From positions 1 through 64,000 of the forward strand of contig JAGCVX010000038.1 in assembly GCA_017962145.1 (NCBI GenBank): DNA of 64,000 bases, read 5' to 3'. Positions 11,703 to 24,941 of the stretch are shown piece by piece (the first letter of the stretch is position 1; every line of letters starts with the position of its first letter). Position numbers and translations under genes: made by a program. Origin of the DNA: Clostridiales bacterium (GTDB lineage: Bacteria; Bacillota; Clostridia; Saccharofermentanales; Saccharofermentanaceae). Below the pieces are notes generated by a model that made no database searches, was not told where the DNA came from, and worked only from the letters and a program-made list of their open reading frames with translations.

Positions 11703-13028
11703 ATGAAACAGGAAAAAAGACGGGCATGGACAGTGCGCATGAGCCGTATCCTCACGGTGATGCTGGCTCTTGTTCTGTCTTTGTCGCTCTTTTCCTCCTG
11801 CTCCGCAAAAGCTTTTCAGAACAATCGAATCGACGTGCCGGAGATGGCGCGTCTGGTCGTAGACTCTCTGCAGGACATTTCCGTAGCGGAATCACTGTTC
11901 AATCTTATCCCTGACGAACAAAAGGATGGACTTACTTATTCCGAGTACTATGAGTACATCAGTATCCTTCAGAAGATGATTCCTTCTGCGGCTCGGATCA
12001 CCTACTTCGATATCGTTGAAGGAAACGAAAGAGAAAACCTGTTTTTGAATATGGCAGGAAGTGATTCGACGCTTTTCGAGGAACTTATGACTTCCTGTAT
12101 TCCGGTGCGCGTAACGGCCAGCCGCCAGCGCATCTCGGAAATTCCGATCTACTTTTATCTTCAGACGCAAAAAGACGGCACAGTCTATCTCAGCCGGGAA
12201 TGGATCTACAGCTGCCGCGATCTGTATTCATTTTCGCAGCACTATTTCGAAGCCTATTCCATGGAGAATCTCTATGACGTAAAGTCGCTTCTTTCCTATA
12301 CGGGCGTTTCCGAAGATCTTCTGTCATCGGACGAAGTACTTACGGAAAAAGCAAAAGAGATGATCCGTTTCTATTCTACGAACGTCAACTCTAAAGTTTC
12401 CGAGTACGAGCTGGTCTCGATCGATGCGTCCGGACTTGTGTATCTCCAGCCGAAGGTACTGGATACCAAGCTGCATACCAATGCCCGTCGCGTGCGTTTC
12501 TACAGCAGCGTCGAAAACGTGATCTCCGTAGATGATTCCATCACAAGTGAATTGAAAACGGCCGACCTGTATCTGTATTACGGTGGTCATCGTACGATCC
12601 GTATCGGTGAGACTGCGACACTTTCCCAGCTGGAATCCCTGTTCGGCGATCCGATCTCGGTCTCCTGCGGACCGGTGCTGGAATCCAAGCGGGATTCGGA
12701 AGGAAACCTGAACGAGTACAGAAATATCTTTGTACGCTACAGCGGGTTTGCGATCACGGTATATGGCATTTATATGAACACTGAAGAGTGGGAAGGAAGC
12801 TACGTGCGTTTCCGTATCTGGGATTCCGATGATGCCGGTATCGGTCTGATGCTTCGTTCAGATAACACTTCCTGGGATATCCTGGAACGGTATCCGTTTG
12901 CAGATAAGACGGATTATTCGATCGCGGTCACGATCGACGGCGAAGAATATGTACTTTCCTTTGATCTGGCTGATGAAGGGGAACAGGGCAGAGCCATTCA
13001 GGAGATCAGACTTACCTGGAAGCGCTGA
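11703..13028 (+). CDS. Predicted lipoprotein of unknown function
   Basis: A 441-residue protein with a basic N-terminus, a hydrophobic stretch (residues 15-30) and a lipobox-like LFSSC with C33, so it is probably anchored on the outer face of the membrane. The rest is soluble, rich in aromatic, serine and acidic residues, with a possible repeated beta-rich half (a late stretch around ETATLSQLESLFGDP resembles the SmpA-like lipoprotein folds only loosely). I do not recognise the family. It begins 1 nt after rlmB, so it is co-transcribed with the cysE operon, though no functional link is evident. Confidence 0.8.
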   Translation: MKQEKRRAWTVRMSRILTVMLALVLSLSLFSSCSAKAFQNNRIDVPEMARLVVDSLQDISVAESLFNLIPDEQKDGLTYSEYYEYISILQKMIPSAARITYFDIVEGNERENLFLNMAGSDSTLFEELMTSCIPVRVTASRQRISEIPIYFYLQTQKDGTVYLSREWIYSCRDLYSFSQHYFEAYSMENLYDVKSLLSYTGVSEDLLSSDEVLTEKAKEMIRFYSTNVNSKVSEYELVSIDASGLVYLQPKVLDTKLHTNARRVRFYSSVENVISVDDSITSELKTADLYLYYGGHRTIRIGETATLSQLESLFGDPISVSCGPVLESKRDSEGNLNEYRNIFVRYSGFAITVYGIYMNTEEWEGSYVRFRIWDSDDAGIGLMLRSDNTSWDILERYPFADKTDYSIAVTIDGEEYVLSFDLADEGEQGRAIQEIRLTWKR

Positions 13029-13031
13029 GTT

Positions 13032-13769
13032 TTACTTTTCCAGTATGAGGGCGGTTAGTCCCTCGATTTCTTCGTCCGAGAGTCCTGTGCTTTTCAGGAA
13101 TATGCGGATATCTCCCTGATAATTACTGTCGACATGCGAAAGAAGTCTTTCCATGTTCGGAGCATCGCTTCGGTAAATGTGATGTACATGATCCGGAGTC
13201 GATGCGATAAGCGGGGCAACCAGATCCTTCACAAATTCATAGGAAACAGCATAGTTGGAAACGATGTCTTTGCGGTCAACATTTGCGAGAAGATAGAAGA
13301 TCGCCGCAATCAGTCCGGTGCGGTCTTTGCCGTGGGCACAGTGAAAAAGCACCGGGTTCGGGGCTTCCTTCAGGATTGTCCGAAGTACTTCGGCAAAGTA
13401 AGGCTTGGAGTTTTCGAACAGCCATACATACAGATGCCCCAAAGAGGTGCGGATGGTGTCCTGAATCGCGGTGGCGCCGATATCGTCTGCATTGACTCGC
13501 AGAAGCGGGATGTTATAGTAACGAAACCTCGGGTCATCCTTTACCCGGTCGGGATGGGTCGAAGCTTCTTCCACCGAGCGAAGATCGATGATGACTTTTA
13601 CCGGATAATCCGAAAGCGCATCGATCGCGTCATCCGGAAGCGTATCCAGTGCATCTGAACGGATCAGGTGGTGAAAACAGGTGATTTTACCATCTTTTGT
13701 CGGCATGCCGCCCAGGTCTCTTGCGTTGTATAATCCGGAAATATTGATCCGTTCGTGTTTTTGATTCAT
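13032..13769 (-). CDS. Tyrosine/dual-specificity phosphatase of the Y_phosphatase3 type
   Basis: A 245-residue protein starting with the family-typical NISGLYNARDLGGMPTKDG. The CX5R catalytic loop HCAHGKDRTG lies at 143-152 with C144 as nucleophile and R150 as phosphate-binding arginine; IDLRSVEEA (61-69) holds the conserved region before it. The lysine inside the loop (GKDRTG) is shared with bacterial proteins that act on phosphotyrosine or phosphoinositides, such as Listeria LipA and Mycobacterium PtpB-like enzymes. It is convergent with the lipoprotein gene (3 nt apart). AAGGAG supports the start. Confidence 0.9.
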   Translation of the reverse strand: MNQKHERINISGLYNARDLGGMPTKDGKITCFHHLIRSDALDTLPDDAIDALSDYPVKVIIDLRSVEEASTHPDRVKDDPRFRYYNIPLLRVNADDIGATAIQDTIRTSLGHLYVWLFENSKPYFAEVLRTILKEAPNPVLFHCAHGKDRTGLIAAIFYLLANVDRKDIVSNYAVSYEFVKDLVAPLIASTPDHVHHIYRSDAPNMERLLSHVDSNYQGDIRIFLKSTGLSDEEIEGLTALILEK

Positions 13770-13880: not shown

Positions 13881-14561
13881 ATGAAGAAGATACTTATAGT
13901 TGAAGACAATACAGAGATCAATCACCTGATCGCCGATGCACTGAAAAAGAACGGATACGAGTGCCAGCAGGCATTTTCCGGAACGGAAGCACTCCTTTAC
14001 TATGAAAAGGACGATTTCGATCTGGTCCTGATGGACATGATGCTTCCGGGTCTTTGCGGCGATGAGCTTTTCCCGAAACTGAAAGCGATCAAGGATACAC
14101 CGGTCATTGTCGTTTCTGCAAAAGATGAGATGGACACAAAAGTGGGCATGCTTACATCGGGCGCAGAAGACTATATTACGAAGCCTTTTGAGATCCCGGA
14201 ACTTCTGGCACGTGTTGCTGTTCAGATCCGCCGCGTGTCTGCCAAGAGCGGTGAGGCTTCCGGTTCCAAGCTTTCCTATAAGGAATTAACACTTGATGAG
14301 CCTTCGTTCACCGTGCTGGTCAACAACAACGAAGTCCAGCTGACAAAAAGAGAGTTCCAGATCCTGGCACTTCTCGTATCTCACCCCAAGCGCGTATTCA
14401 CCAAGCAGGACATTTACGACTGCGCATGGAATGAGATCTATATCGGTGAAGATAAGACTATTAATGTACATATAAGTAATATTCGTAAGAAACTCAAAGA
14501 GTTCACGGATACTGAGTTTATTGAGACTGTATGGGGAATCGGATATAAACTTGCAAAATAA
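13881..14561 (+). CDS. OmpR/PhoB-family response regulator
   Basis: A 226-residue transcription factor with a receiver domain (acidic pocket E8, D9; phosphoacceptor D52; switch lysine in VVSAKDE) and a C-terminal winged helix (DEPSFTVLVNNNEVQLTKREFQILALL ... TINVHISNIRKKL is the recognition region). It is the first gene of the ABC transporter island, and the likely partner histidine kinase is the last (24012-24941). It most likely activates transporter modules on exposure to a membrane-active compound, as with BceR/SpaR-like regulators. GGTGG-type ribosome-binding site precedes the ATG. Confidence 0.95.
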   Translation: MKKILIVEDNTEINHLIADALKKNGYECQQAFSGTEALLYYEKDDFDLVLMDMMLPGLCGDELFPKLKAIKDTPVIVVSAKDEMDTKVGMLTSGAEDYITKPFEIPELLARVAVQIRRVSAKSGEASGSKLSYKELTLDEPSFTVLVNNNEVQLTKREFQILALLVSHPKRVFTKQDIYDCAWNEIYIGEDKTINVHISNIRKKLKEFTDTEFIETVWGIGYKLAK

Positions 14562-14575
14562 GAAGGTATATCTTT

Positions 14576-15487
14576 ATGAGTTACATCTTAACGACGAACA
14601 ATATCACGAAGAAGTTCAAAACAAAACTGGCTGTCGATAACGTTTCGATTCACGTTGAGCGCGGAGAAGTCTACGGTCTGATCGGAAGAAACGGTGCCGG
14701 CAAGACAACGCTTTTGAAGATGATCGCCAATCTTTCCGTTCCTACAAGCGGAACCTATGATATCGTGGGTAAAGACGGAGAGACCAAGGCTCAGATGATG
14801 CCGAAAGTCGGCGTTCTGATCGAAGATCCGGGCGTATTCCAGAATATGAGTGCTTTCGAAAACCTGAAGGCAAAAGCACTTGCCTATGGTGTGCACGACG
14901 ATAAGTATTTAAATGAACTTCTTGAGTTCGTCGGTCTCAGCGGTGTCGGTAAGAAATCCGTAAAGAATTTCTCTTTGGGAATGCGCCAGCGCCTCGGAAT
15001 TGCCATCGCGATGGTCAATTCTCCGGAACTTCTGCTTCTCGATGAGCCGATCAATGGTCTCGATCCGCAGGGTATCGCGGAAGTACGTAATCTGATCCAT
15101 AAACTTTGTATCGAGAGACATATCTCGATCATTATTTCCAGCCACATCCTGGAAGAACTGTCCAAGGTGGCTAACCACTACGGCATCATCCATAACGGAA
15201 AGCTTCTGGATGAGCTCTCCAACGATGAACTTATTTCTCGTTGCAAATCACATCTTGTCATGAAGACCAGTGATCCTGAAAAGACAAAGGCGCTCTTAAA
15301 CTCGATGGGTATTTCCGATTATTCATTCGAGATCGATCACTTCGTGATCCGCGAACGAGTCGAGGAAGCCGGTGCGATCTCTGTAGCGCTGGCTAAAGAA
15401 GATGTGCAGACTCTGGAAATGCGAAAAGAGGGTCAATCTCTTGAGGAATACTATTTCCGTCTGACAGGAGGTAACGGCAATGCTTAA
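14576..15487 (+). CDS. ABC transporter ATP-binding protein, BcrA type, module 1
   Basis: A 303-residue ATPase of the bacitracin/lantibiotic-export type. Walker A GRNGAGKT is at 37-44, a family-typical signature SLGMRQ at 133-138, Walker B LLLLDEP at 152-158, D-loop GLDPQG, and switch H190. A C-terminal extension of about 80 residues follows the nucleotide-binding domain, ending in LTGG. It lies 14 nt after the response regulator gene, so the two share a transcript. The permease gene overlaps its last 8 nt, and the codons of the terminal TGG supply the permease's AGGAGG. Confidence 0.95.
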   Translation: MSYILTTNNITKKFKTKLAVDNVSIHVERGEVYGLIGRNGAGKTTLLKMIANLSVPTSGTYDIVGKDGETKAQMMPKVGVLIEDPGVFQNMSAFENLKAKALAYGVHDDKYLNELLEFVGLSGVGKKSVKNFSLGMRQRLGIAIAMVNSPELLLLDEPINGLDPQGIAEVRNLIHKLCIERHISIIISSHILEELSKVANHYGIIHNGKLLDELSNDELISRCKSHLVMKTSDPEKTKALLNSMGISDYSFEIDHFVIRERVEEAGAISVALAKEDVQTLEMRKEGQSLEEYYFRLTGGNGNA

Positions 15488-16340
15488 TCTTTTCACTATG
15501 CATATGTACCGCGCGTTGAAAGCAAAGTCTTCGCTCGTATTAGGAATTATCATGGTCGCTTTCATGTTTGCGACTTTCGGACTTGCATTTATCATTTTCG
15601 ATGATCCGCTTAAGCTTGGAATCGGTGCCGCCTATACGCAGATGATGGTGGGTGAGGGATCCGGTAATATTTCTGCTGCCGGTGCACATCACTTTATGAT
15701 CCAGTCCAATGACGCATTTATTATCTGCCTGACGATCTTTGCAGTTATCTTTGCAAACTGCGATTTTTCGAGAGGTTTTGTAAAGAATACATATGGTATG
15801 TTCGAACATAGATGGAAACAGGTATGGTCGAAGTGGACCGCGATGACAGCCTGCGTTTCGATCGCATATGCTGTTTGCTCTATGCTTGGTATCGCTCTTT
15901 GCTTAGGACTTCTTAAAAACAGTCAGTTCGGTGATGCTTCGCAGCTGCTTCGCTCTTTAGGCGTGGTATATCTCTGCCTGATCGCGATGATGACGATGGT
16001 ATTCTTTATCACGAATCTCTTTAAGAGCCCGGCCGGCGGTATGGTTATCGGCCTGATCATTGCAACAGGTATTCTTCAGACCGGTGAAATGATTCTGGAT
16101 CTTCTTATCGCAAAGCTTTCCGGTGCAGATATGAATGAAACAGTTGCAGCTTTTGCAGGTATAGGTGAAAAGACATTCTTCCGTATCTCGGATTACTGTC
16201 TGGACAATGTATATCTTTCTTATACTGCTTCTATGGGAACATCCGATACGATCCGCACAGTTGCAGTCGCGCTGGTTCATATGGCGCTGTTCCTGGGCCT
16301 TTCGATGCTCCTTTCCGAGAAGAGAGACGTACGCTGCTGA
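15480..16340 (+). CDS. ABC-2 type permease, module 1
   Basis: A 286-residue membrane protein with about six hydrophobic segments, starting NLFTMHMYRALKAKSSLVLG and ending EKRDVRC. The arrangement (cytoplasmic N-terminal amphipathic helix, FANCDFSRGFVKNT loop after the second membrane segment, charged RD tail) resembles BcrB/LanE-G permeases that remove peptide antibiotics from the membrane. The paired ATPase overlaps it by 8 nt. It is the longest of the eight permeases, with a longer first outside loop. Confidence 0.9.
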   Translation: MLNLFTMHMYRALKAKSSLVLGIIMVAFMFATFGLAFIIFDDPLKLGIGAAYTQMMVGEGSGNISAAGAHHFMIQSNDAFIICLTIFAVIFANCDFSRGFVKNTYGMFEHRWKQVWSKWTAMTACVSIAYAVCSMLGIALCLGLLKNSQFGDASQLLRSLGVVYLCLIAMMTMVFFITNLFKSPAGGMVIGLIIATGILQTGEMILDLLIAKLSGADMNETVAAFAGIGEKTFFRISDYCLDNVYLSYTASMGTSDTIRTVAVALVHMALFLGLSMLLSEKRDVRC

Positions 16341-16449
16341 CCGCTTAATCTTTTCTTAACTTTTTCTTTTGGTTTTTTAAACTTCTCCTTGGCGATTGAT
16401 TAGGATTTGTTCTTTAGAATGAGTTTGTAAGCACAAGGAGGAGACAACA

Positions 16450-17361
16450 ATGGATTACATTTTAACAACTAACGCATTGACAAAAACCTTTGGTAAGTAC
16501 AAAGCGTCCAACGAGATCTCGATCCATGTAAATCGTGGAGATATCTACGGACTGATCGGCAGAAACGGTGCCGGTAAAACAACCCTGATGAAGATGCTCG
16601 GCGGACTTTCCCATCCCACATCCGGTTCTTTTGAGATCCGCGGTAAGAATGGTGAGAATACAGAGAAGATGATGCCGAAGGTCGGTATCCTGATCGAGAA
16701 TCCGGGTCTTTACCCCAACATGACAGCGATGCAGAACCTTAAGACAAAGGCACTGGCTCTGGGTATTAAAGATGACAATTATTTACAGGGCCTTCTCAAA
16801 GAAGTCGGACTGGACAACACCGGCAAGAAGAAAGCAAAGCAGTTCTCGCTTGGTATGAAGCAGAGACTGGGAATCGCACTGGCACTGGTCAATCAGCCGG
16901 AACTTATGATCCTCGATGAGCCGATCAACGGTCTGGATCCTCAGGGTATCGCAGAAATGAGACAGATCCTTACCCACCTTTGCAATGACAGAGGAATCAC
17001 GATCATCATCAGCAGCCACATCCTGGATGAGCTTTCCAAGGTAGCAACCAGATACGGTATCATCCACGAAGGTAAGCTTCTCGAAGAAGACAGCAAAGAA
17101 GAGCTTTTCAATAAGTGCAGCGAGCGTCTTGAACTGAAGACCTCTGATCTTGAGAGAACACTCTCCATCCTTCAGACGATGGGCTTCCAGAATTTTGAAG
17201 TAAAAGACGATACGATCAATATCTACGAACGTATCAACGAAGGCGGTGTCATCACAGTCGCACTGGCCAAGGAAAATATCCAGACAAACGAAATCGGTGT
17301 AAAGAGTGAAGCGCTTGAAGATTATTACTTCCAGCTGACAGGAGGAAAAGAAAATGTTTAA
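16450..17361 (+). CDS. ABC transporter ATP-binding protein, BcrA type, module 2
   Basis: A second 303-residue ATPase, collinear with that of module 1: GRNGAGKT (37-44), SLGMKQ signature, LMILDEPINGLDPQG, and ISSHILDEL. It ends LTGGKENV. The identical length and residue-for-residue layout show that modules arose by duplication followed by strong divergence. The gap of 109 nt upstream contains no clear promoter, only pyrimidine-rich sequence and an AAGGAGGAG ribosome-binding site, so it may depend on the upstream transcript or on a regulator-dependent promoter. Confidence 0.95.
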   Translation: MDYILTTNALTKTFGKYKASNEISIHVNRGDIYGLIGRNGAGKTTLMKMLGGLSHPTSGSFEIRGKNGENTEKMMPKVGILIENPGLYPNMTAMQNLKTKALALGIKDDNYLQGLLKEVGLDNTGKKKAKQFSLGMKQRLGIALALVNQPELMILDEPINGLDPQGIAEMRQILTHLCNDRGITIIISSHILDELSKVATRYGIIHEGKLLEEDSKEELFNKCSERLELKTSDLERTLSILQTMGFQNFEVKDDTINIYERINEGGVITVALAKENIQTNEIGVKSEALEDYYFQLTGGKENV

Positions 17362-18154
17362 TTTGATTAAGATGAATCTGTATCGCATGGTACATGCGGT
17401 ATCTACATGGGTATTGGCTATTGTAGCCGTATTTCTTGCCTTCCTGGATTTTGGAATCATGAAGATCATGGTAGACGATCCGTTCAAACTGTTCGGATCA
17501 GCCTCTTCTCAGATGTTGGGAACTACCACCATTACCGGTCGTACGACAATCGCCGGATTCCTTATCAGCTCTGATATTCTTATCGTACTTTCGATCTTTG
17601 TAGTTATCTTCGCGAATGCGGAGCAGAAGAACGGTTTTGACAAGAACATCATCGGTATCACGAAGATGAAGTGGAAGCACACAGTCGCCAGATGGCTCTC
17701 CTGTGTGATCGGTCTGACAGCAATCGTTGCAGTTTCTTACGGCCTGTACTTCGGCCTGAGCGCTCTGTTCATGAACTCTTTCGCGATGGGCAGCGTAGCC
17801 GCTTATCTTAAGGTCCTTGCAACCGTATACTTCGGTCTGGTAGCATTCTCGGCGATCTTCTTCTTCTTCACCACTCTCTTCAGAAGCTCTGTTGGTGGAA
17901 TCGTAGCTTCCCTCGTAATGAGCCTGGGTGTTCTTTCCCTCCTCGAAAAGCTCCTTGATTTCGCAGTAAAGAAGATCTTTACAAGCCCGAAGATTCTTCC
18001 GACGGACCTCCTGTTCGACAGCGCATACATCAACTTCGATGCAACGAGCGCGACAACCAAAGCCTGCCTGATCATGGCCGGTATCTCACTGGCATACATC
18101 GTGCTCAGTGTCGGCGGAAGCGCACTGCTTCAGCAGAAGAGAGATGTAAAATAA
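17354..18154 (+). CDS. ABC-2 type permease, module 2
   Basis: A 266-residue membrane protein with about six hydrophobic segments, collinear with the module 1 permease: NLIKMNLYRMVHAVSTWVL start, IFANAEQKNGFDKNIIG after the second segment, and the charged end LLQQKRDVK. It overlaps its ATPase by 8 nt, the same overlap as in module 1. It would form, probably as a homodimer, the membrane part of a two-component exporter with the preceding ATPase. Confidence 0.9.
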   Translation: MFNLIKMNLYRMVHAVSTWVLAIVAVFLAFLDFGIMKIMVDDPFKLFGSASSQMLGTTTITGRTTIAGFLISSDILIVLSIFVVIFANAEQKNGFDKNIIGITKMKWKHTVARWLSCVIGLTAIVAVSYGLYFGLSALFMNSFAMGSVAAYLKVLATVYFGLVAFSAIFFFFTTLFRSSVGGIVASLVMSLGVLSLLEKLLDFAVKKIFTSPKILPTDLLFDSAYINFDATSATTKACLIMAGISLAYIVLSVGGSALLQQKRDVK

Positions 18155-18194
18155 TCAACGCCTGATCTTTCTTAATATAATACCCTCTAACCTT

Positions 18195-18242
18195 GAAAAC
18201 AGAACTTCTTCTCTGGAAATGAGAAGAGTTCTGTTTTCTTTA
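18195..18242 (+). terminator. Intrinsic terminator after module 2
   Basis: GAAAACAGAACT (18195-18206) pairs with AGTTCTGTTTTC (18227-18238), and TTCTC/GAGAA extends the stem inward, giving one long hairpin with a T-rich 3' arm. It separates module 2 from module 3. Confidence 0.8.
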
Positions 18243-18261
18243 AGTGAAAAATGAAAAGAAT

Positions 18262-18289
18262 TTGACGAAATGGCTTGAATGAATATAAT
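18262..18289 (+). promoter_or_regulatory. Promoter of ABC module 3
   Basis: TTGACG (18262-18267) and a perfect TATAAT (18284-18289) are 16 nt apart. It lies after the module 2 terminator and 50 nt before the third ATPase gene, so module 3 and the kinase can be expressed independently of modules 1 and 2. Confidence 0.8.
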
Positions 18290-18339
18290 ATTGAGGATGT
18301 GGGAACAGACATCAATGTACGAATCAACCGGAGGGCGCC

Positions 18340-19251
18340 ATGGAATATTTACTTGAAACCGATAATATTACGAAAAAGTACGGAAATCTTACCGCAGTCG
18401 ATCATGTCACCATCAAATTACAGCGTGGTGAGATCTATGGTCTGATTGGTCGTAATGGTGCTGGTAAGACTACACTTCTGAAGATGCTGGCAGGTCTTGC
18501 TAAGCCGACAGAAGGTACCTATACCATCTTTGGTGAATCCCAGAAGAATACAGCTAAACTTCGTGACCGTATCGGTGTTCTTATCGAGAGCCCCGGTCTT
18601 TTCCCGAATCTTTCCGCTTTTGATAATATGAAGATAAAAGCGCTGACCCTCGGTATGAACGATGATGCATTTCTCCGTGAACTCTTAAATGACGTTGGCT
18701 TATCTGATGTTGAGAAGAGAAAAGTAAAGCGTTTTTCCATGGGTATGAAGCAGCGTCTCGGAATTGCTATGTCTCTTGTAGGACATCCGGACCTGCTGCT
18801 TCTTGACGAACCGATCAACGGCCTCGATCCGCAGGGTATCGTAGAAGTCCGTGAATTGATCGAGAGACTCAGCAAAGAGAGAAATATCACGATCCTGATC
18901 TCCAGCCATATTCTTGAAGAACTTTCGAAGATCGCGACTCGTTACGGTATCATCCACAACGGTCAGCTGATCGATGAGTTTACACATCAGGAACTGTTGA
19001 AACGATGCAGTGAGCGTATTGAGATCCGTCCTTCTGATCCGACCCGCGCGGTAACGGTCATCGAAGGTATGGGTATAACTGAATTTAAGGTTATTGACAA
19101 TAGTATCATCCAGATTTTTGAGCGACTGGATGACAGTGGTGATATTGTTTTGGAACTGGCAAAGAATAACATCAAGACGTTAAGTGTTGCCGTCAAGAAC
19201 GAAGCCCTTGAAGATTACTATTTGTCCATAACCGGAGGCGCCAAAGCATGA
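18340..19251 (+). CDS. ABC transporter ATP-binding protein, BcrA type, module 3
   Basis: The third 303-residue ATPase: GRNGAGKT (37-44), SMGMKQ signature, LLLLDEPINGLDPQG, ISSHILEEL, and C-terminal ITGGAKA. It is followed by six permease genes and no second ATPase, so this single ATPase probably serves several permease pairs. It overlaps the first permease by 4 nt (ATGA). The codons for its terminal TGG provide the GGAGG used by that permease, as in modules 1 and 2. Confidence 0.95.
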   Translation: MEYLLETDNITKKYGNLTAVDHVTIKLQRGEIYGLIGRNGAGKTTLLKMLAGLAKPTEGTYTIFGESQKNTAKLRDRIGVLIESPGLFPNLSAFDNMKIKALTLGMNDDAFLRELLNDVGLSDVEKRKVKRFSMGMKQRLGIAMSLVGHPDLLLLDEPINGLDPQGIVEVRELIERLSKERNITILISSHILEELSKIATRYGIIHNGQLIDEFTHQELLKRCSERIEIRPSDPTRAVTVIEGMGITEFKVIDNSIIQIFERLDDSGDIVLELAKNNIKTLSVAVKNEALEDYYLSITGGAKA

Positions 19252-20015
19252 TTGCCCTGATTCGGGCCAGACTCTATTCAGTGGTTAAATCCAAAAGCTT
19301 TGCGATTTTTCTTGTTACCATGACCATCTGGGCCTTGTGGAACATAATTGATGCACAGGTTTCTTCTACGATTTCCAATGCAGAGACGGCCTATATATAC
19401 TGGAATATGATCAATTTGTTCGGTATCATTCTGCCGGTTGGTGCCAGTACTTGGTATGGATGCTTTATGCCCCACCATGTCTCGTTTAATGTTCCTTTTC
19501 AGGTTGATGATAAGCACGTCAAATGGGTGGGAATCCTGACAACATATGTTCTTGAAACAGCCGGTTTTCTTGTCTTGATGATCCTCGCTTTTGTGGCCGA
19601 GCATCTGCCGACATGTAAGATGGAGCATTCCTCTGCGGCGACAACGCTGAAAGTGATCCTTGTCATTTTTCTGATTTGCTTTTTCCGGACAGGCTTTGTG
19701 ATCTTCTTTACTGAACTCACCAAAAGCCGTTTGGGCGGAGCACTATTCGGAATTGTATTTGTCTGCGGTGCGGTCCAGGTTTTCAGCTTGGATCTTGAGG
19801 TTCGTATTTACGATTTTCTGGGGATTACAGAGACGACGTTGCCTGTTACTACGCACACGACGTATTTCATTTATTCCACACTTTTGGCGATGGATGATAG
19901 ACACATTACATTTGAGTCGACTCCGATGCTCGGTACATGTCTCTATTTGCTTCTGGTCGGCATGCTTTTTCTGGGACTCACACAGTATCTGATCCAAAAG
20001 CGAGATGTAGAGTAA
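19248..20015 (+). CDS. ABC-2 type permease, module 3 A-type copy 1
   Basis: A 255-residue membrane protein with about six hydrophobic segments. It begins IALIRARLYSVVKSKSF, carries LGITETTLPVTTHTTYFIY in the last outside loop and ends IQKRDVE. The genes at 20836 and 22426 code for the same length and the same landmarks. With its neighbour of the B type (12 nt downstream) it probably forms a heterodimeric channel like LanE/LanG. Confidence 0.9.
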   Translation: MIALIRARLYSVVKSKSFAIFLVTMTIWALWNIIDAQVSSTISNAETAYIYWNMINLFGIILPVGASTWYGCFMPHHVSFNVPFQVDDKHVKWVGILTTYVLETAGFLVLMILAFVAEHLPTCKMEHSSAATTLKVILVIFLICFFRTGFVIFFTELTKSRLGGALFGIVFVCGAVQVFSLDLEVRIYDFLGITETTLPVTTHTTYFIYSTLLAMDDRHITFESTPMLGTCLYLLLVGMLFLGLTQYLIQKRDVE

Positions 20016-20027
20016 AGGGGGCGCGGC

Positions 20028-20822
20028 ATGTATAACATTTTCAAAAAAAACTTGTTCCAGTTACGTCAAGATCGCACCTTCTGGATTGCTGTTACCATTT
20101 TTCTCTTGATCCTTGTGTGGATGACGTCGCCGGTGGATCCGTATCATCGCGTGAAGTATGTAGGAACCAATACTGAACTCATTCGCGTTATGGCTAAGGA
20201 GGATGCAAAATACGAGAGGGTGGAAACGCTTTCGTACTATATCCGAGATCGATTTGCTTCGAACCGAGCCTTGGTGGTCGGCATCGCTTTTTGTTTCGTT
20301 TTCTTTAATAGAGAAAAGAGTTCGAAGTCTTTTGAGAATACTTGTGCGGTGACCAGGGATCGTTTTTCTGTATACTTTGCAAATGTCGCTTCACTGACTA
20401 TGGTGTGCGAGTTGTGTTCTTTCGTAGAGCTTTTGAGTCTGACGATCACGATTCTTTACTCAGGAAAGCATAGAAGTCTGCAGGGGTTAGGTGAACTTTT
20501 TCCTTTCGTCTGTATGCAGTTGATGGTGGTATTGTTCCTGGTTGTGCTGTTTTATGGAGCATATCTGATTACACAGCGAATACTTGTTCCGGTTGTGATA
20601 TTTGCTGTTTGGGATATGAGCGTGCTCGTAACAACTTTTTCTGTTTTTCCGGAAACGGTAAAACAGGTGATTGCTGATACGTCTATTCTCGGGATTATGG
20701 ATAGAGTCATTGCAACGACCAGCTGGTCAGCATGTGCGCGAGGGATGATGATTTTTGTCCCGGCCACGCTTCTATGTATGACGATCACTCTTGTCGTGAT
20801 CCACGCCAGAGATTTGAACTAG
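20028..20822 (+). CDS. ABC-2 type permease, module 3 B-type copy 1
   Basis: A 264-residue membrane protein. Landmarks of the B type: FWI near residue 18, a long first outside loop ending RFASNR, then FNREKSSKSFENTCAVTRDR, a V-rich LITQRILVPVV segment and C-terminal HARDLN. It is the most divergent of the three B-type copies. GGGGGCG serves as a modest ribosome-binding site. Confidence 0.88.
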   Translation: MYNIFKKNLFQLRQDRTFWIAVTIFLLILVWMTSPVDPYHRVKYVGTNTELIRVMAKEDAKYERVETLSYYIRDRFASNRALVVGIAFCFVFFNREKSSKSFENTCAVTRDRFSVYFANVASLTMVCELCSFVELLSLTITILYSGKHRSLQGLGELFPFVCMQLMVVLFLVVLFYGAYLITQRILVPVVIFAVWDMSVLVTTFSVFPETVKQVIADTSILGIMDRVIATTSWSACARGMMIFVPATLLCMTITLVVIHARDLN

Positions 20823-20835
20823 GAGCGAGGAAAAG

Positions 20836-21603
20836 ATGGTTGATCAGATTCGAGCACGTTTTTATGCTATCGTCCGAAGCAAGACATTTCTTTTGGTTCT
20901 TATTGTCTGCGTTTTTTGGGTGCTTTTTGCCACCATCGGCTTATTAACAGGAGATTCTTCGGAACCGATCAATACATCTTATGTTTTCGTTCAAATTACC
21001 CGCCTGTATATAGAAAACGTTCCCATTGGCGCTGCCGGCTGGTATATTTGCTACCGCAAAAGCAGGTACCAGAACCAGATTCCTTGTCAGCAGTACGAGA
21101 TGAAGAGCCTTTTCGGAAACTTTTGTGCGTCAATGTGCATGAGTAATATTTTCATGCTAGGTCACTTCGTATGTGCGATCATTGTGGTCCTGATCATGGG
21201 TGACCGCATTATAGCCTCGAGTTTTTTGAACCTTGCCGGAACAATAGCAGTTCTTTTCTTGATCTCGGTTTCCAGAACAGCGTGGACTTGCCTTTGTACG
21301 GAAATGGTTCGCGATCATGTCGTGGGAACGGTGCTGGGATTGATCTCAAGTACTGCGATTTTGCAGACATTCCTTCTTGATGGGGAAATCAAGGTTTGTG
21401 GTTTGCTGGGAATCAAGGCTTCGTCTTTGCCGGTTACCTCTTACACCACGTACTGTATTCACGAGGCTTTGTTTAAAGGAAACGGTAAAGTTGTGCTCTT
21501 TAATCATATAAATCCATATGCGGCAGTACTGGTTCTGATTGGATTCATAGCTGTGTTTTCTTTGGGTACGGTTCTTCTGGTGCGGAAGAGAGATGTAGCG
21601 TGA
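20836..21603 (+). CDS. ABC-2 type permease, module 3 A-type copy 2
   Basis: A 255-residue membrane protein, starting VDQIRARFYAIVRSKTF and ending VRKRDVA. It shares with the copy at 22426 the stretches NQIPCQQYEMKSLF versus NNVPCQQHDMKSLF and the loop LGIKASSLPVTSYTTYCIH. These two copies are closer to each other than to copy 1, which suggests two rounds of duplication. Confidence 0.9.
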   Translation: MVDQIRARFYAIVRSKTFLLVLIVCVFWVLFATIGLLTGDSSEPINTSYVFVQITRLYIENVPIGAAGWYICYRKSRYQNQIPCQQYEMKSLFGNFCASMCMSNIFMLGHFVCAIIVVLIMGDRIIASSFLNLAGTIAVLFLISVSRTAWTCLCTEMVRDHVVGTVLGLISSTAILQTFLLDGEIKVCGLLGIKASSLPVTSYTTYCIHEALFKGNGKVVLFNHINPYAAVLVLIGFIAVFSLGTVLLVRKRDVA

Positions 21604-21619
21604 AAGGAGGTAGATTCTT

Positions 21620-22411
21620 ATGTATACACTAATTAAAACGCATGTATATAAGCTGGTCCATGACAAACTGTTCTGGATCCTTCTGGGAGTCTGCTTTCTT
21701 TTTCAGTTATGGGCTTTTTCTCCGAGACCCTCGTACGGAACTTTTGTTTATACCGGTCCGAATCCTGCTTTTACGGAGTATGTAAATAAAGTCGGCGCAA
21801 GTGTTGTTACAGAACCAACTTTGCTGGAAAATGTCATAAGACGAGCCATTACTTTGGTGATTACCGCATTTTTCATGTCCTATTCTTTTGTATACTGCAA
21901 CCGGGAAAAGAAGAGCCATGTGTTTGAAAACATATGTGCCATCCACAGTAATCGGACGGAGGTATTCTTCAGTAATATCCTCGCGCAGATGGCTATGGTT
22001 ATTCCGTTTTTCCTGCTCAACAGCCTGAACCTTGTTATTTGGTCACTTTACACTGACCCACATATGGCGATAGGTGATGCACGTATTTTGCTTCCCTACC
22101 TTGTGGGGCTTGTGATCTATGTCTCATTTTTGATCTCACTTTCTTATTCGCTTTATATGCTGACACATCGCGTTCTCGTGCCGGTTGTTGTTTTTCTTTC
22201 GTTCTCCATTAATTCACTGTTTAAGTCAGATGCGAAAGGCGTTCCGGTCCTACAGCAGATTACGCAGTGCAACATAAGCCGGATTCTAAGCAAACTGAAT
22301 TCAATACGCAGCTGGGGAGATTGTCTCAATCTCGCTTTGTATCTTCTGCCTGTGACGATTATCGTTGTGGTATTAACGACAACGGTAGTTCGTCATCGAG
22401 ATCTGGATTAA
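21620..22411 (+). CDS. ABC-2 type permease, module 3 B-type copy 2
   Basis: A 263-residue membrane protein of the B type, with HDKLFWILLGV, VYTGPNPAFTEY in the first outside loop, YCNREKKSHVFENICAI after the second membrane segment, MLTHRVLVPVV, and C-terminal RHRDLD. AAAGGAGG precedes it at good spacing. It resembles copy 3 more than copy 1. Confidence 0.9.
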   Translation: MYTLIKTHVYKLVHDKLFWILLGVCFLFQLWAFSPRPSYGTFVYTGPNPAFTEYVNKVGASVVTEPTLLENVIRRAITLVITAFFMSYSFVYCNREKKSHVFENICAIHSNRTEVFFSNILAQMAMVIPFFLLNSLNLVIWSLYTDPHMAIGDARILLPYLVGLVIYVSFLISLSYSLYMLTHRVLVPVVVFLSFSINSLFKSDAKGVPVLQQITQCNISRILSKLNSIRSWGDCLNLALYLLPVTIIVVVLTTTVVRHRDLD

Positions 22412-22425
22412 GGAGGGCATAGAAA

Positions 22426-23193
22426 ATGGTCAATCAGATTCACGCACGTTTATACGCAATCGTCCGAACTACGTTCTTCAAAGTATTCCTTTCGCTAATG
22501 GTATTATGGACGCTTCTTTCTATCTTTGGATTTTTACACGAAAAACCAACCGTAGAAATGGATACGGCTTATATATTCGTACAGATGACCCAGTTGTATC
22601 TGACACTTCTGCCCATTGCTGTCGGAAGCTGGCATATTCTTTTCCGCAGCACCGGTTTTCAGAATAATGTTCCCTGTCAGCAGCATGACATGAAGAGTCT
22701 TTTCAGCAGTTTTGCCGTATCGATGATCACGAACGCGTTTTTTATGTTGGGATTAAGCATTTGTTCTGTTATCATCATCCTGGGTATGGGAGATCGCCTG
22801 ACTTCCTCAAGTGCATCCTGCATGGCCGAGACGATCCTCATCTTATGCATGATCTCCCTTTCAAGGACAGCATGGTCATGTCTTTGTATTGAAGTTGTCA
22901 GAACTCGCATAGTCGGCGTTTTACTTGCACTTCTTTCTTCTTGCCCGATCCTGCAGTTTTTCCTTATTGACTGGGAAGTGGAAGTACTCAATCTCTTTGG
23001 TATTCATTCTTCCTCTTTGCCCATTACATCGTATAGCTCGTATATGATACATGATTCGTTGTTTTTGCAAAACGGAAAAACAATCTTTTTTGATCGTCTG
23101 GATCCACATATATCGATAGTGGTATTGACTGTATTGATCCTGCTTTTTTCTCTTGGCACGCTGTTTATCGCGACAAGACGAGATGTTGTGTGA
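22426..23193 (+). CDS. ABC-2 type permease, module 3 A-type copy 3
   Basis: A 255-residue membrane protein, starting VNQIHARLYAIVRTTFF, with PCQQHDMKSLF, loop FGIHSSSLPITSYSSYMIH and C-terminal ATRRDVV. Same length and collinear with the other two A-type permeases. AAGGAGG lies upstream, in the 14-nt gap after the preceding gene. Confidence 0.9.
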   Translation: MVNQIHARLYAIVRTTFFKVFLSLMVLWTLLSIFGFLHEKPTVEMDTAYIFVQMTQLYLTLLPIAVGSWHILFRSTGFQNNVPCQQHDMKSLFSSFAVSMITNAFFMLGLSICSVIIILGMGDRLTSSSASCMAETILILCMISLSRTAWSCLCIEVVRTRIVGVLLALLSSCPILQFFLIDWEVEVLNLFGIHSSSLPITSYSSYMIHDSLFLQNGKTIFFDRLDPHISIVVLTVLILLFSLGTLFIATRRDVV

Positions 23194-23209
23194 AAGGAGG
23201 ACGATTCGC

Positions 23210-24001
23210 ATGTATCAGCTTACGAAGATGAATGCATATAAGACACTTCGCGACAGAACATTCTGGATCCTGATCGGAATCTGCCTTCTTATCGAACTGT
23301 GGGTATATGTGCCCCGAGCCGCTTTCGATGTCTTTGTATATACCGGTGCGGATCCGAAATACAACAGATATCTCGAATTCTTCAAAAGAAAAGTGGCGAC
23401 GAATCCTACGTTGATCGATGATGTTCTGAGACGGGGATTCACCCTTCCTACGCTTAGTTTCTTTGCGTCCTATTCCTTTGTGTTTTGCGGAAGAGAGAGA
23501 AAAAGCCGGTTGTTCGAAAACCTTTGCGCGATCAGGAGAGATCGTACGGAAGTATTCTTCGCCAATCTTCTTTGGCTGGTGTTGACGGTGATTCCGTTTC
23601 TTCTGATCAATCAATGCATGCTGGCGATCGCTTCGAAAATATCCGCTCCCGAAAAGACGGTCGGGGATGTTTCAGTCCTTTTCCCGTATTATTTCTCGGT
23701 GTTTGTCGTCGCGGCATTTTTTGCTTCCCTTACCTATTCGGTCTATATGTTGAGCCACTCTTCCGTTCTCCCGGTCGGTATATATGTCTTCTTTTCCACG
23801 ATCTCGCTTTTCCACCCGGCTACGGCGGACGTTCCGGTACTGGGTTATATTACAAAACTGGATCTGATCGATATTGTTCACAAACTGGCTGAGGTGCGTA
23901 CATGGAAAGATTGTTTCAATCTTTCGATATGGTTAATACCTGTTATAATAGTATCTGTTCTGGTCTCGGCTTTCGTAGTACAGAAGAGAGATTTGAAGTA
24001 A
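23210..24001 (+). CDS. ABC-2 type permease, module 3 B-type copy 3
   Basis: A 263-residue membrane protein of the B type: RDRTFWILIGI, VYTGADPKYNRY in the first outside loop, FCGRERKSRLFENLCAI, MLSHSSVLPVG, and C-terminal VQKRDLK. I place the start at ATG 23210 after AAAGGAGG; a longer open frame begins inside the previous gene and would add about 19 residues without support. The kinase gene follows after 10 nt. Confidence 0.9.
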   Translation: MYQLTKMNAYKTLRDRTFWILIGICLLIELWVYVPRAAFDVFVYTGADPKYNRYLEFFKRKVATNPTLIDDVLRRGFTLPTLSFFASYSFVFCGRERKSRLFENLCAIRRDRTEVFFANLLWLVLTVIPFLLINQCMLAIASKISAPEKTVGDVSVLFPYYFSVFVVAAFFASLTYSVYMLSHSSVLPVGIYVFFSTISLFHPATADVPVLGYITKLDLIDIVHKLAEVRTWKDCFNLSIWLIPVIIVSVLVSAFVVQKRDLK

Positions 24002-24011
24002 GGAGAAAGAT

Positions 24012-24941
24012 ATGCTTTATTGGGCAATTGGTGCTACCGTAGCTTTTCTGGCGATCCTGATCGCTTTCATCCAATATCGTAAGCAGATCAAGAAGAACTG
24101 CAGGCAGCTGCGTGTCATGCAGAAGCACTCTTCCAACCAGCGCCTGAGTTCTGAGGTGCCATATAAGGAAGTAAATGAACTGGTCATGCGCGTCAACGAT
24201 ATCTGTAACCGCTATCAGGAAGAAGGTATCGAGATGGAACGCAACGAGAATAACCTCAAGGAAGCCATCGCCAATCTTTCTCACGATATCCGTACGCCGC
24301 TTACTTCTTTGGATGGATATGTCCAGCTCCTGGTCATGTCTGATTCCCAGGAAGAGAAGGATCACTATATGCAGATTATCCAGAACCGTATTTCGAGCCT
24401 GAAGGAGCTTCTGGAGGAACTGTTTACCTATACGAAGATGCAGGATTCGCATTATGAACTCAACTGCGTGCCGATGGATGGCGGTCAGTGTGTCTGTGAG
24501 ACGGTCCTTTCTTTCTATGAAGACTTTGAAACAAGAGGTCTTGAGCCGGAGGTATCTTTCAGTGAAGAGAAACTGATGATCGTCGGCAACGAAGTCGCGC
24601 TTCGCCGTATCGTCCAGAATCTTGTTAAAAATGCACTGGAGCACGGCACGAAGCGTCTGGGATTGACTTTGGATAAGAAGGGTGACAATCTGCATTTCGT
24701 CTGCTTTAACGATAAGAAGGAGACGGAGATCATCGAGGTCGACAAGATCTTTACCCGTTTCTACAAGGGAGATAAGGCAAGAACCTCCACATCTACCGGT
24801 CTGGGACTTGCGATCGCGCAGGGGTTGGTCGAGCGTATGCACGGTGAGATCTCGGCGGCCGTGGAGGGGGAACTGTTTAAGATCGAGTTTACTATTCCTC
24901 TATATAAAGATAGAAGAGAGAAGGGCAAGAGCGAAAGCTGA
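24012..24941 (+). CDS. Sensor histidine kinase with minimal sensor region
   Basis: A 309-residue kinase with one N-terminal membrane segment (about 3-20), no outside domain and no HAMP motif that I can see. The dimerisation/phosphoacceptor box NLSHDIRTPLTSL puts the phospho-histidine at H91. ATP-binding boxes: N box RIVQNLVKNALEHG, F box FTRFYKGDKA, G2 box STGLGLAIAQGLVERMHG. It resembles kinases of lantibiotic and bacitracin response systems that sense through a transporter rather than by their own domain. It closes the module 3 transcript, about 9.5 kb from the likely partner regulator. Confidence 0.93.
   Translation: MLYWAIGATVAFLAILIAFIQYRKQIKKNCRQLRVMQKHSSNQRLSSEVPYKEVNELVMRVNDICNRYQEEGIEMERNENNLKEAIANLSHDIRTPLTSLDGYVQLLVMSDSQEEKDHYMQIIQNRISSLKELLEELFTYTKMQDSHYELNCVPMDGGQCVCETVLSFYEDFETRGLEPEVSFSEEKLMIVGNEVALRRIVQNLVKNALEHGTKRLGLTLDKKGDNLHFVCFNDKKETEIIEVDKIFTRFYKGDKARTSTSTGLGLAIAQGLVERMHGEISAAVEGELFKIEFTIPLYKDRREKGKSES

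Follow-up and report, generated by a model that had tools for sequence, protein, structure and literature searches.

In the account given in PMC5786555, pumps of the LanFEG/CprABC kind expel lantibiotics from the membrane with one ATPase and two different permeases of six transmembrane (TM) segments each, and operons of the Cpr type include a two-component system. Here we describe a related operon in a 64,000-nucleotide stretch of a Clostridiales bacterium genome (contig JAGCVX010000038.1, positions 1 to 64,000; hereafter the window). The bacterium is uncultured, and its nearest named relatives are from the guts of ruminants. Its genes, at 13881-24941, are ordered RR-F1-P1-F2-P2-F3-A1-B1-A2-B2-A3-B3-HK, where RR is a response regulator, F1 to F3 are ABC ATPases, P1 and P2 are single permeases, A and B are two types of permease that alternate behind F3, and HK is a histidine kinase (Table 1). 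An earlier, sequence-only reading had picked out the six alternating permeases; beyond these, the operon holds RR and two ATPase-permease pairs upstream (13881-18154) and HK downstream (24012-24941). F1 and F2 each have a single permease of their own, and only F3 heads the A-B array.

The layout of F3, A and B with the adjoining regulators matches that published for Cpr-type systems, of one nucleotide-binding domain, two TM domains and a two-component system (PMC5786555). We judge it probable that the locus is a LanFEG/CprABC-like exporter or self-protection system whose three diverged heterodimers are driven by a single LanF-like ATPase. Each part belongs to a known kind, and the arrangement, in which a series of permease pairs follows a single ATPase, is a variant. 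The sequence-only reading knew of no LanFEG-like system with three permease pairs, and searches of the open-licence PMC literature for LanFEG with more than one pair listed none either.

Permease types and their duplication

The division into two types is borne out. The A type has exactly 255 residues in each copy and the B type 264, 263 and 263, and the motifs first noticed by eye recur throughout, [LF]GI...LP[VI]T in 3/3 A permeases and both FWI and [NG]RE[KR]...FEN in 3/3 B permeases. When 20 permeases from four genomes are placed in one tree, A and B each occupy one side of a branch (support 100/99), with P1 and P2 falling apart from both groups. Alignments within a type score z 18.6-52.7 against shuffles, compared with z 1.3-7.0 between types, where identity is 18.7-28.4%.

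Copies 2 and 3 had been thought closest to each other, and alignments, trees and order-matched distances all agree on this point. A2 and A3 are 47.1% identical, with A1 at 26-27% to either; B2 and B3 are 44.5% identical, with B1 at 28-30%. A2 and A3 pair with support 99/100 in the 20-permease tree and again in an A-only tree, and B2 and B3 pair with support 98/99 in a B-only tree, so that the two types give matched sister pairs. In the 20-permease tree B2 and B3 stand at an open fork rather than as a supported pair, and the placement of B1 is unsure owing to long branches. The A2-B2 junction resembles that of A3-B3, both reading TGAAAGGAGG..GATTC..ATG. Across 11 A-B pairs the A and B distances correlate (r 0.90), a whole-tree value that reflects mostly shared ancestry; for the pairs of the window, the real order gives the highest correlation of any (0.8998, the runner-up order giving 0.8942). 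On these comparisons, copies 2 and 3 give a strong signal of duplication as pairs, and copy 1 is only consistent with such a history.

All six frames are intact, with zero internal stops and Shine-Dalgarno-like sites; five of the genes start 12-16 nt from the previous stop and A1 overlaps F3 by 4 nt. For B3 we take the start to be the ATG at 23210, which has a Shine-Dalgarno-like GGAGG, the open reading frame (ORF) as listed beginning further upstream at 23153. Nonsynonymous and synonymous divergence (dN and dS) are 0.43 and 1.86 between A2 and A3, and 0.50 and 2.37 between B2 and B3, which would indicate long-term purifying selection on both pairs, although only approximately, as dS is near saturation. 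Tandem duplicates are common and three pairs occur in one genome only, as would suit redundant or decaying copies that are kept for dosage and handle the same substrate. However, the intact frames, the ribosome-binding sites and the signs of long selection all speak against such an account, and we hold it to be improbable. Still less credence, indeed next to none, can be given to an assembly artefact. The assembly, of 40 contigs and 85% complete, was probably binned from a metagenome, as its named relatives were, but the copies differ at half of their residues or more, too far apart for one locus assembled twice, and both flanks correspond to single loci in relatives.

Comparison with described exporters

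A simple hydropathy scan finds six TM segments in A1, A3, B1 and B2 and five in A2 and B3. The permeases are of the ABC-2 type, by Pfam profile for B and by the top Foldseek matches of structural models for A2 and B2. PF12679 lies above its cut-off in B1, and PF12730 above it in B3 and below it in B2; no A permease has a Pfam match. AlphaFold models of B2 (predicted local distance difference test, pLDDT, 74) and A2 both retrieve ABC-2-type exporters first, with PmtCD as the best solved structure. Searching the PDB by sequence with the B profile returned nothing. PmtABCD, the phenol-soluble modulin exporter, has two ATPases and two permeases, several of each in one operon. It differs from our locus in having no tandem permease cassette, and identity in the structural alignment is only 10-12%. 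In a small local set, comparison with one Lactococcus FEG-like permease gave B3 as the best match (E 5e-4). The BceAB permease is more distant, a ten-TM FtsX-type protein with a large extracellular domain, whereas the permeases here have 255-286 residues and five to six TM segments, with neither an FtsX match in Pfam nor a large extracellular domain in the TM scan.

Likeness to LanFEG/CprABC systems (NisFEG, CprABCK-R) covers the one ATPase, the two different permeases of about 240-260 residues with about six predicted TM segments, and the adjoining two-component system. It extends to the ATPase, since among NCBIfam models F3 fits TIGR03740 best (lantibiotic protection ATPase, 3.6e-72) and the E-loop glutamate is seen in 21/23 F3 of the genus. 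In LanFEG ATPases this glutamate replaces the glutamine of the Q-loop. The differences are that those systems have one pair per ATPase and F3 has three, and that the present operon contains two further ATPase-permease pairs. The kinase differs as well, as CprK-type kinases are described, in PMC5786555 and PMC8003753, with two TM segments and an extracellular loop, whereas the TM scan of HK shows a single N-terminal segment and nothing extracellular. Thus, of the original label "LanFEG-like", the layout and the best ATPase family stand, and the curated cut-off, the permease models and the kinase type do not.

Gene order is shared with loci of the form RR-F-P-HK that carry a BcrA-like ATPase, on a Lachnospira eligens plasmid and on the Enterococcus faecalis plasmid pJXZ076-99K. 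The kinase from L. eligens shares 40% identity with HK and likewise begins with one TM segment, and F1-P1 and F2-P2 are units of the same kind. Those loci differ in having a single permease per ATPase and no A-B pairs. An ATPase with several partners, MsmK, serves importers whose partners are encoded at separate loci, unlike the tandem cassette array here.

In the mechanism we propose, two tandem duplications would have copied an A-B cassette but not its ATPase, giving A1B1, A2B2 and A3B3 as three heterodimeric transporters of different specificity with F3 as their common motor. By analogy with LanFEG, an F3 dimer would dock on the A-B heterodimers, and the flanking RR and the kinase, which lacks a sensor domain, would control the operon. 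We infer the assembly of A with B, the powering of all three pairs by F3, the regulation by RR and HK, and the export of peptides that act on membranes, or of compounds like them. Conservation among the six B sequences fits a common motor with different cargo, as cytosolic segments, including the TM2-TM3 loop, are 51% conserved and extracellular ones 20%, a contrast as extreme in only 1/262 circular shifts (with segment limits taken from the simple hydropathy scan).

Several results weigh against this reading. The contrast between cytosolic and extracellular segments is weak in A, being reached by 39/254 circular shifts. The model of A2 is of low quality (pLDDT 59.1), and Foldseek gives E-values no better than 4e-3 for B2 and 7e-3 for A2. 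F3 scores 242.7 bits on TIGR03740, for which the cut-off is 309.75, and none of the eight permeases tested matched a LanE or LanG model of NCBIfam at E up to 1. Finally, the cell has F1 and F2 at its disposal as well, and the pairs may not use F3 exclusively.

The operon across the genus and the family

We used a sample of 23 species of the genus, including that of the window, to follow the operon among relatives. The order RR-F1-P1-F2-P2-F3-...-HK can be read in the window and in 21/22 other species, the contig of the remaining one (G001) starting at F2. The number of A-B pairs that separate F3 from HK is three in the window, one in G003, G018 and G013 (L012-L014, metagenome-assembled genomes named after sheep and water-buffalo gut samples) and zero in 19 species (L045-L063), where F3 and HK are separated by -4 to 26 nt. 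In the rest of these 19 genomes, searches with profiles turned up neither A nor B, the leftover matches being weak (1e-5 or worse) and many of them at P1 or P2. F3 nonetheless stays intact in these species, with dN/dS of 0.042-0.085 in eight close pairs of them, and F1 and F2 give similar values. Comparative evidence of this kind indicates that an F3 with no adjacent permease of its own is maintained by selection in 19/23 species. Walker A, signature, Walker B and H-loop of F3 are retained in 23/23 genomes; the Q-loop motif LIE/LVE/LLE is found in 21/23 F3, 22/22 F1 and 23/23 F2, the search pattern being unmatched in two F3.

The permeases, judged by their sequences, evolve much faster than the motors and regulators. 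Mean pairwise identities over the genus are 91.7% for RR, 87.0% for F2, 77.4% for HK, 76.8% for F3, 71.8% for F1, 58.0% for P2 and 49.5% for P1 (HK, RR, F1 and P1 from 22 genomes). The kinase of G005 (L045, reverse complement, 12843-13769), which is broken by an in-frame TAG, was omitted. Between the window and the one-pair species, A and B are 23-35% identical, and HK and F3 about 80%.

The retention of F3 where A and B are absent means that another partner or role must exist for it there. One way to view this is that the ATPases are promiscuous, with F1, F2 and F3 interchangeable for P1, P2 and the A-B pairs, and F3 working with P1 or P2 in the 19 species that lack A-B. F1 to F3 are 54-59% identical to one another, and the sharing of an ATPase has a precedent in MsmK, which energises several permease sets of carbohydrate importers (PMC4519317). 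In a tree that drew on 14/23 genomes of the genus, however, F3 is separate from an F1+F2 group (99/95), and the three remain distinct groups genus-wide, as if they had separate jobs. F3-type ATPases also travel with A-B pairs in another genus. We therefore regard interchangeable ATPases as possible but unlikely, and prefer F3 as the motor of the three pairs.

That second genus of the family has F-A-B units, with an ATPase homologous to F3, in four genomes (G292, G519, G522 and G504). Gene order is the same as in the window; there is one ATPase per pair, and no two-component system adjoins. F3 joins the ATPases of these units with support 100/100, so that the F-A-B module is probably older than the split of the genera. 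In the tree of the locus the four A-B carriers group with the A-B-free G020, which requires at least two events of gain or loss; given the grouping of F3 with the F-A-B ATPases, an ancestral F-A-B with later losses seems likelier than a single gain of A-B in the genus. Since the F3 clade heads A-B pairs elsewhere in the family and the array contains no other ATPase, F3 presumably serves all three pairs alone. The expectation that a single ATPase would have to serve three pairs is supported for F3, by phylogeny and position, but not for the operon as a whole, which encodes three ATPases.

The suggested search for further ATPase-(AB)n loci yielded the one-pair loci of three genus species and the F-A-B units of the second genus, with the three-pair array, among the loci examined, in the window only. 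The A-type profile has matches in 8/188 genomes of the order and the B-type profile in 12/115 of the family; in a sample of the class the figures are 2/391 and 3/391, with a weak B match in G274 at a single ATPase-permease pair. B directly follows A in 11/11 examined pairs from 8 genomes, a count that omits weak B-type matches (E 1e-10 to 1e-13) in G311, G362, G507 and G518. A search of viral contigs with the kinase gave no match. Tandem copies occur in G292 as well, as F-A-B-F-A-B (L069, 7408-12656), but the two cases differ, since G292 copied motor and pair together and the window copied the pair only.

These comparisons also bear on the idea that the additional A-B pairs serve the kinase as inputs and are not three pumps, more pairs widening the range of inducers. 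There is a model for this in BceB, which senses its compound and signals to BceS. HK, with one N-terminal TM segment and nothing outside, would need such an input, its L. eligens homologue in an RR-F-P-HK locus starts alike, and the pairs lie directly upstream of HK in the carriers. Yet the kinases of A-B-free species (G005 left out) are 73-82% identical to those of carriers, showing that HK does not need the pairs, the F-A-B units of the second genus have no two-component system beside them, and neither A nor B has a large extracellular domain of the Bce kind. We consider a sensory role for the pairs quite improbable.

Operon setting and what a shared motor would mean

Gene spacings within the operon are -8 to 16 nt, with the exceptions of the P1-F2 gap (109 nt) and the P2-F3 gap (185 nt). 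The first contains strongly conserved CTTAA/CTTTTTCTTAAC/TTTTTCTT repeats and a promoter-like stretch, and the repeat block is a possible binding site for the response regulator. In the second, a hairpin GAAAA[CT]AGAAC...GTTCT[GA]TTTTC with a T-rich tail is kept in 13 aligned genomes, in which a conserved ATAATACCCTCT precedes it; the window has a C-G pair where the others have T-A. TTGACG-N16/17-TATAAT is readable ahead of F3 in all four A-B carriers of this alignment, and the TTGACG box was not seen in its nine A-B-free loci. F3-(AB)n-HK may thus form a transcription unit of its own. A promoter scan of the region before F3 found 16 promoter-like sites compared with 19.2 in shuffled sequence, so that the argument for a promoter rests on conservation.

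Table 1. Features of the operon in the window, with the evidence for each
Feature	Position	Strand	Evidence
RR, response regulator (receiver and OmpR/PhoB-type winged helix), 226 aa	13881..14561	+	Pfam PF00072, PF00486; 94% identity in three one-pair relatives
F1, LanF/BcrA-like ABC ATPase, 303 aa	14576..15487	+	PF00005; top NCBIfam model TIGR03740, under cut-off
P1, single ABC-2-type permease partner of F1, 286 aa	15480..16340	+	8-nt overlap with F1; six predicted TM (TM scan)
P1-F2 gap, conserved repeats and promoter-like block	16341..16449	+	alignment of 13/23 genomes
F2, LanF/BcrA-like ABC ATPase, 303 aa	16450..17361	+	PF00005; TIGR03740 top, under cut-off
P2, single permease partner of F2, 266 aa	17354..18154	+	8-nt overlap with F2; TM scan
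Terminator-like hairpin between P2 and F3	18195..18238	+	alignment, folding
Promoter-like TTGACG-N16-TATAAT (11/12) ahead of F3	18262..18289	+	boxes common to all four A-B carriers
F3, LanF-like ABC ATPase at head of A-B array, 303 aa	18340..19251	+	Walker A, signature, Walker B, H-loop; groups with F-A-B-unit ATPases 100/100
A1 permease, 255 aa	19248..20015	+	A clade
B1 permease, 264 aa	20028..20822	+	B clade; PF12679 just above cut-off
A2 permease, 255 aa	20836..21603	+	sister to A3, 47% identity
B2 permease, 263 aa	21620..22411	+	sister to B3, 44.5% identity; model resembles PmtCD chain
A3 permease, 255 aa	22426..23193	+	A clade, sister to A2
B3 permease, 263 aa	23210..24001	+	B clade; PF12730 above cut-off
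HK, histidine kinase, one N-terminal TM, no extracellular domain, 309 aa	24012..24941	+	PF00512, PF02518; TM scan

P1 matches no Pfam family, nor does it match any NCBIfam model meaningfully. Upstream of the operon lie a cysteinyl-tRNA synthetase, an RNase III-domain protein and a SpoU methylase, and downstream a tRNA-Arg and then genes that, by eye, resemble tig and clpX. We rejected a horizontal island, as there are housekeeping genes on both sides, relatives have upstream ORFs of matching size, and GC content is near that of the window (42-45% in the A and B genes, only slightly lower than the 48% of the window). Immunity in a lantibiotic producer was likewise set aside. The genome of the window has two LanC-like PF05147 proteins (L101, 6049-7395, 448 aa; L102, 6083-7465, 460 aa), but they stand alone: inspection of the neighbouring ORF lists by eye, though not by a family scan, revealed neither a lanthipeptide precursor nor LanB or LanM. 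The second is near genes resembling nitrogenase components, again by eye, and PF05147 matches occur in 14/23 genomes of the genus.

Nothing known is overturned by the finding. A more speculative extension, which we hold to be doubtful, treats the ATPase as the constant part and the permease pairs as cassettes that can be exchanged at one fixed position between F3 and HK. Heterodimers could then also form as mixed Ai-Bj combinations, and in species that lack cassettes the orphan LanF-like ATPase would drive the other permeases of the operon. If so, gaining or losing permease cassettes would adjust the range of protection, with motor and regulator untouched. The natural loci with 0, 1 and 3 pairs in one genus provide a test set for the sharing of an ATPase, the mixing of heterodimers and the role of the orphan ATPase. 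RR, F2, F3 and HK are nearly constant (genus means of 77-92%) while A and B diverge and vary in number, which suggests that the motor and the channels of such pumps are inherited, lost and multiplied separately. If true, this would make the motor separable from what sets specificity in one class of protection pumps.

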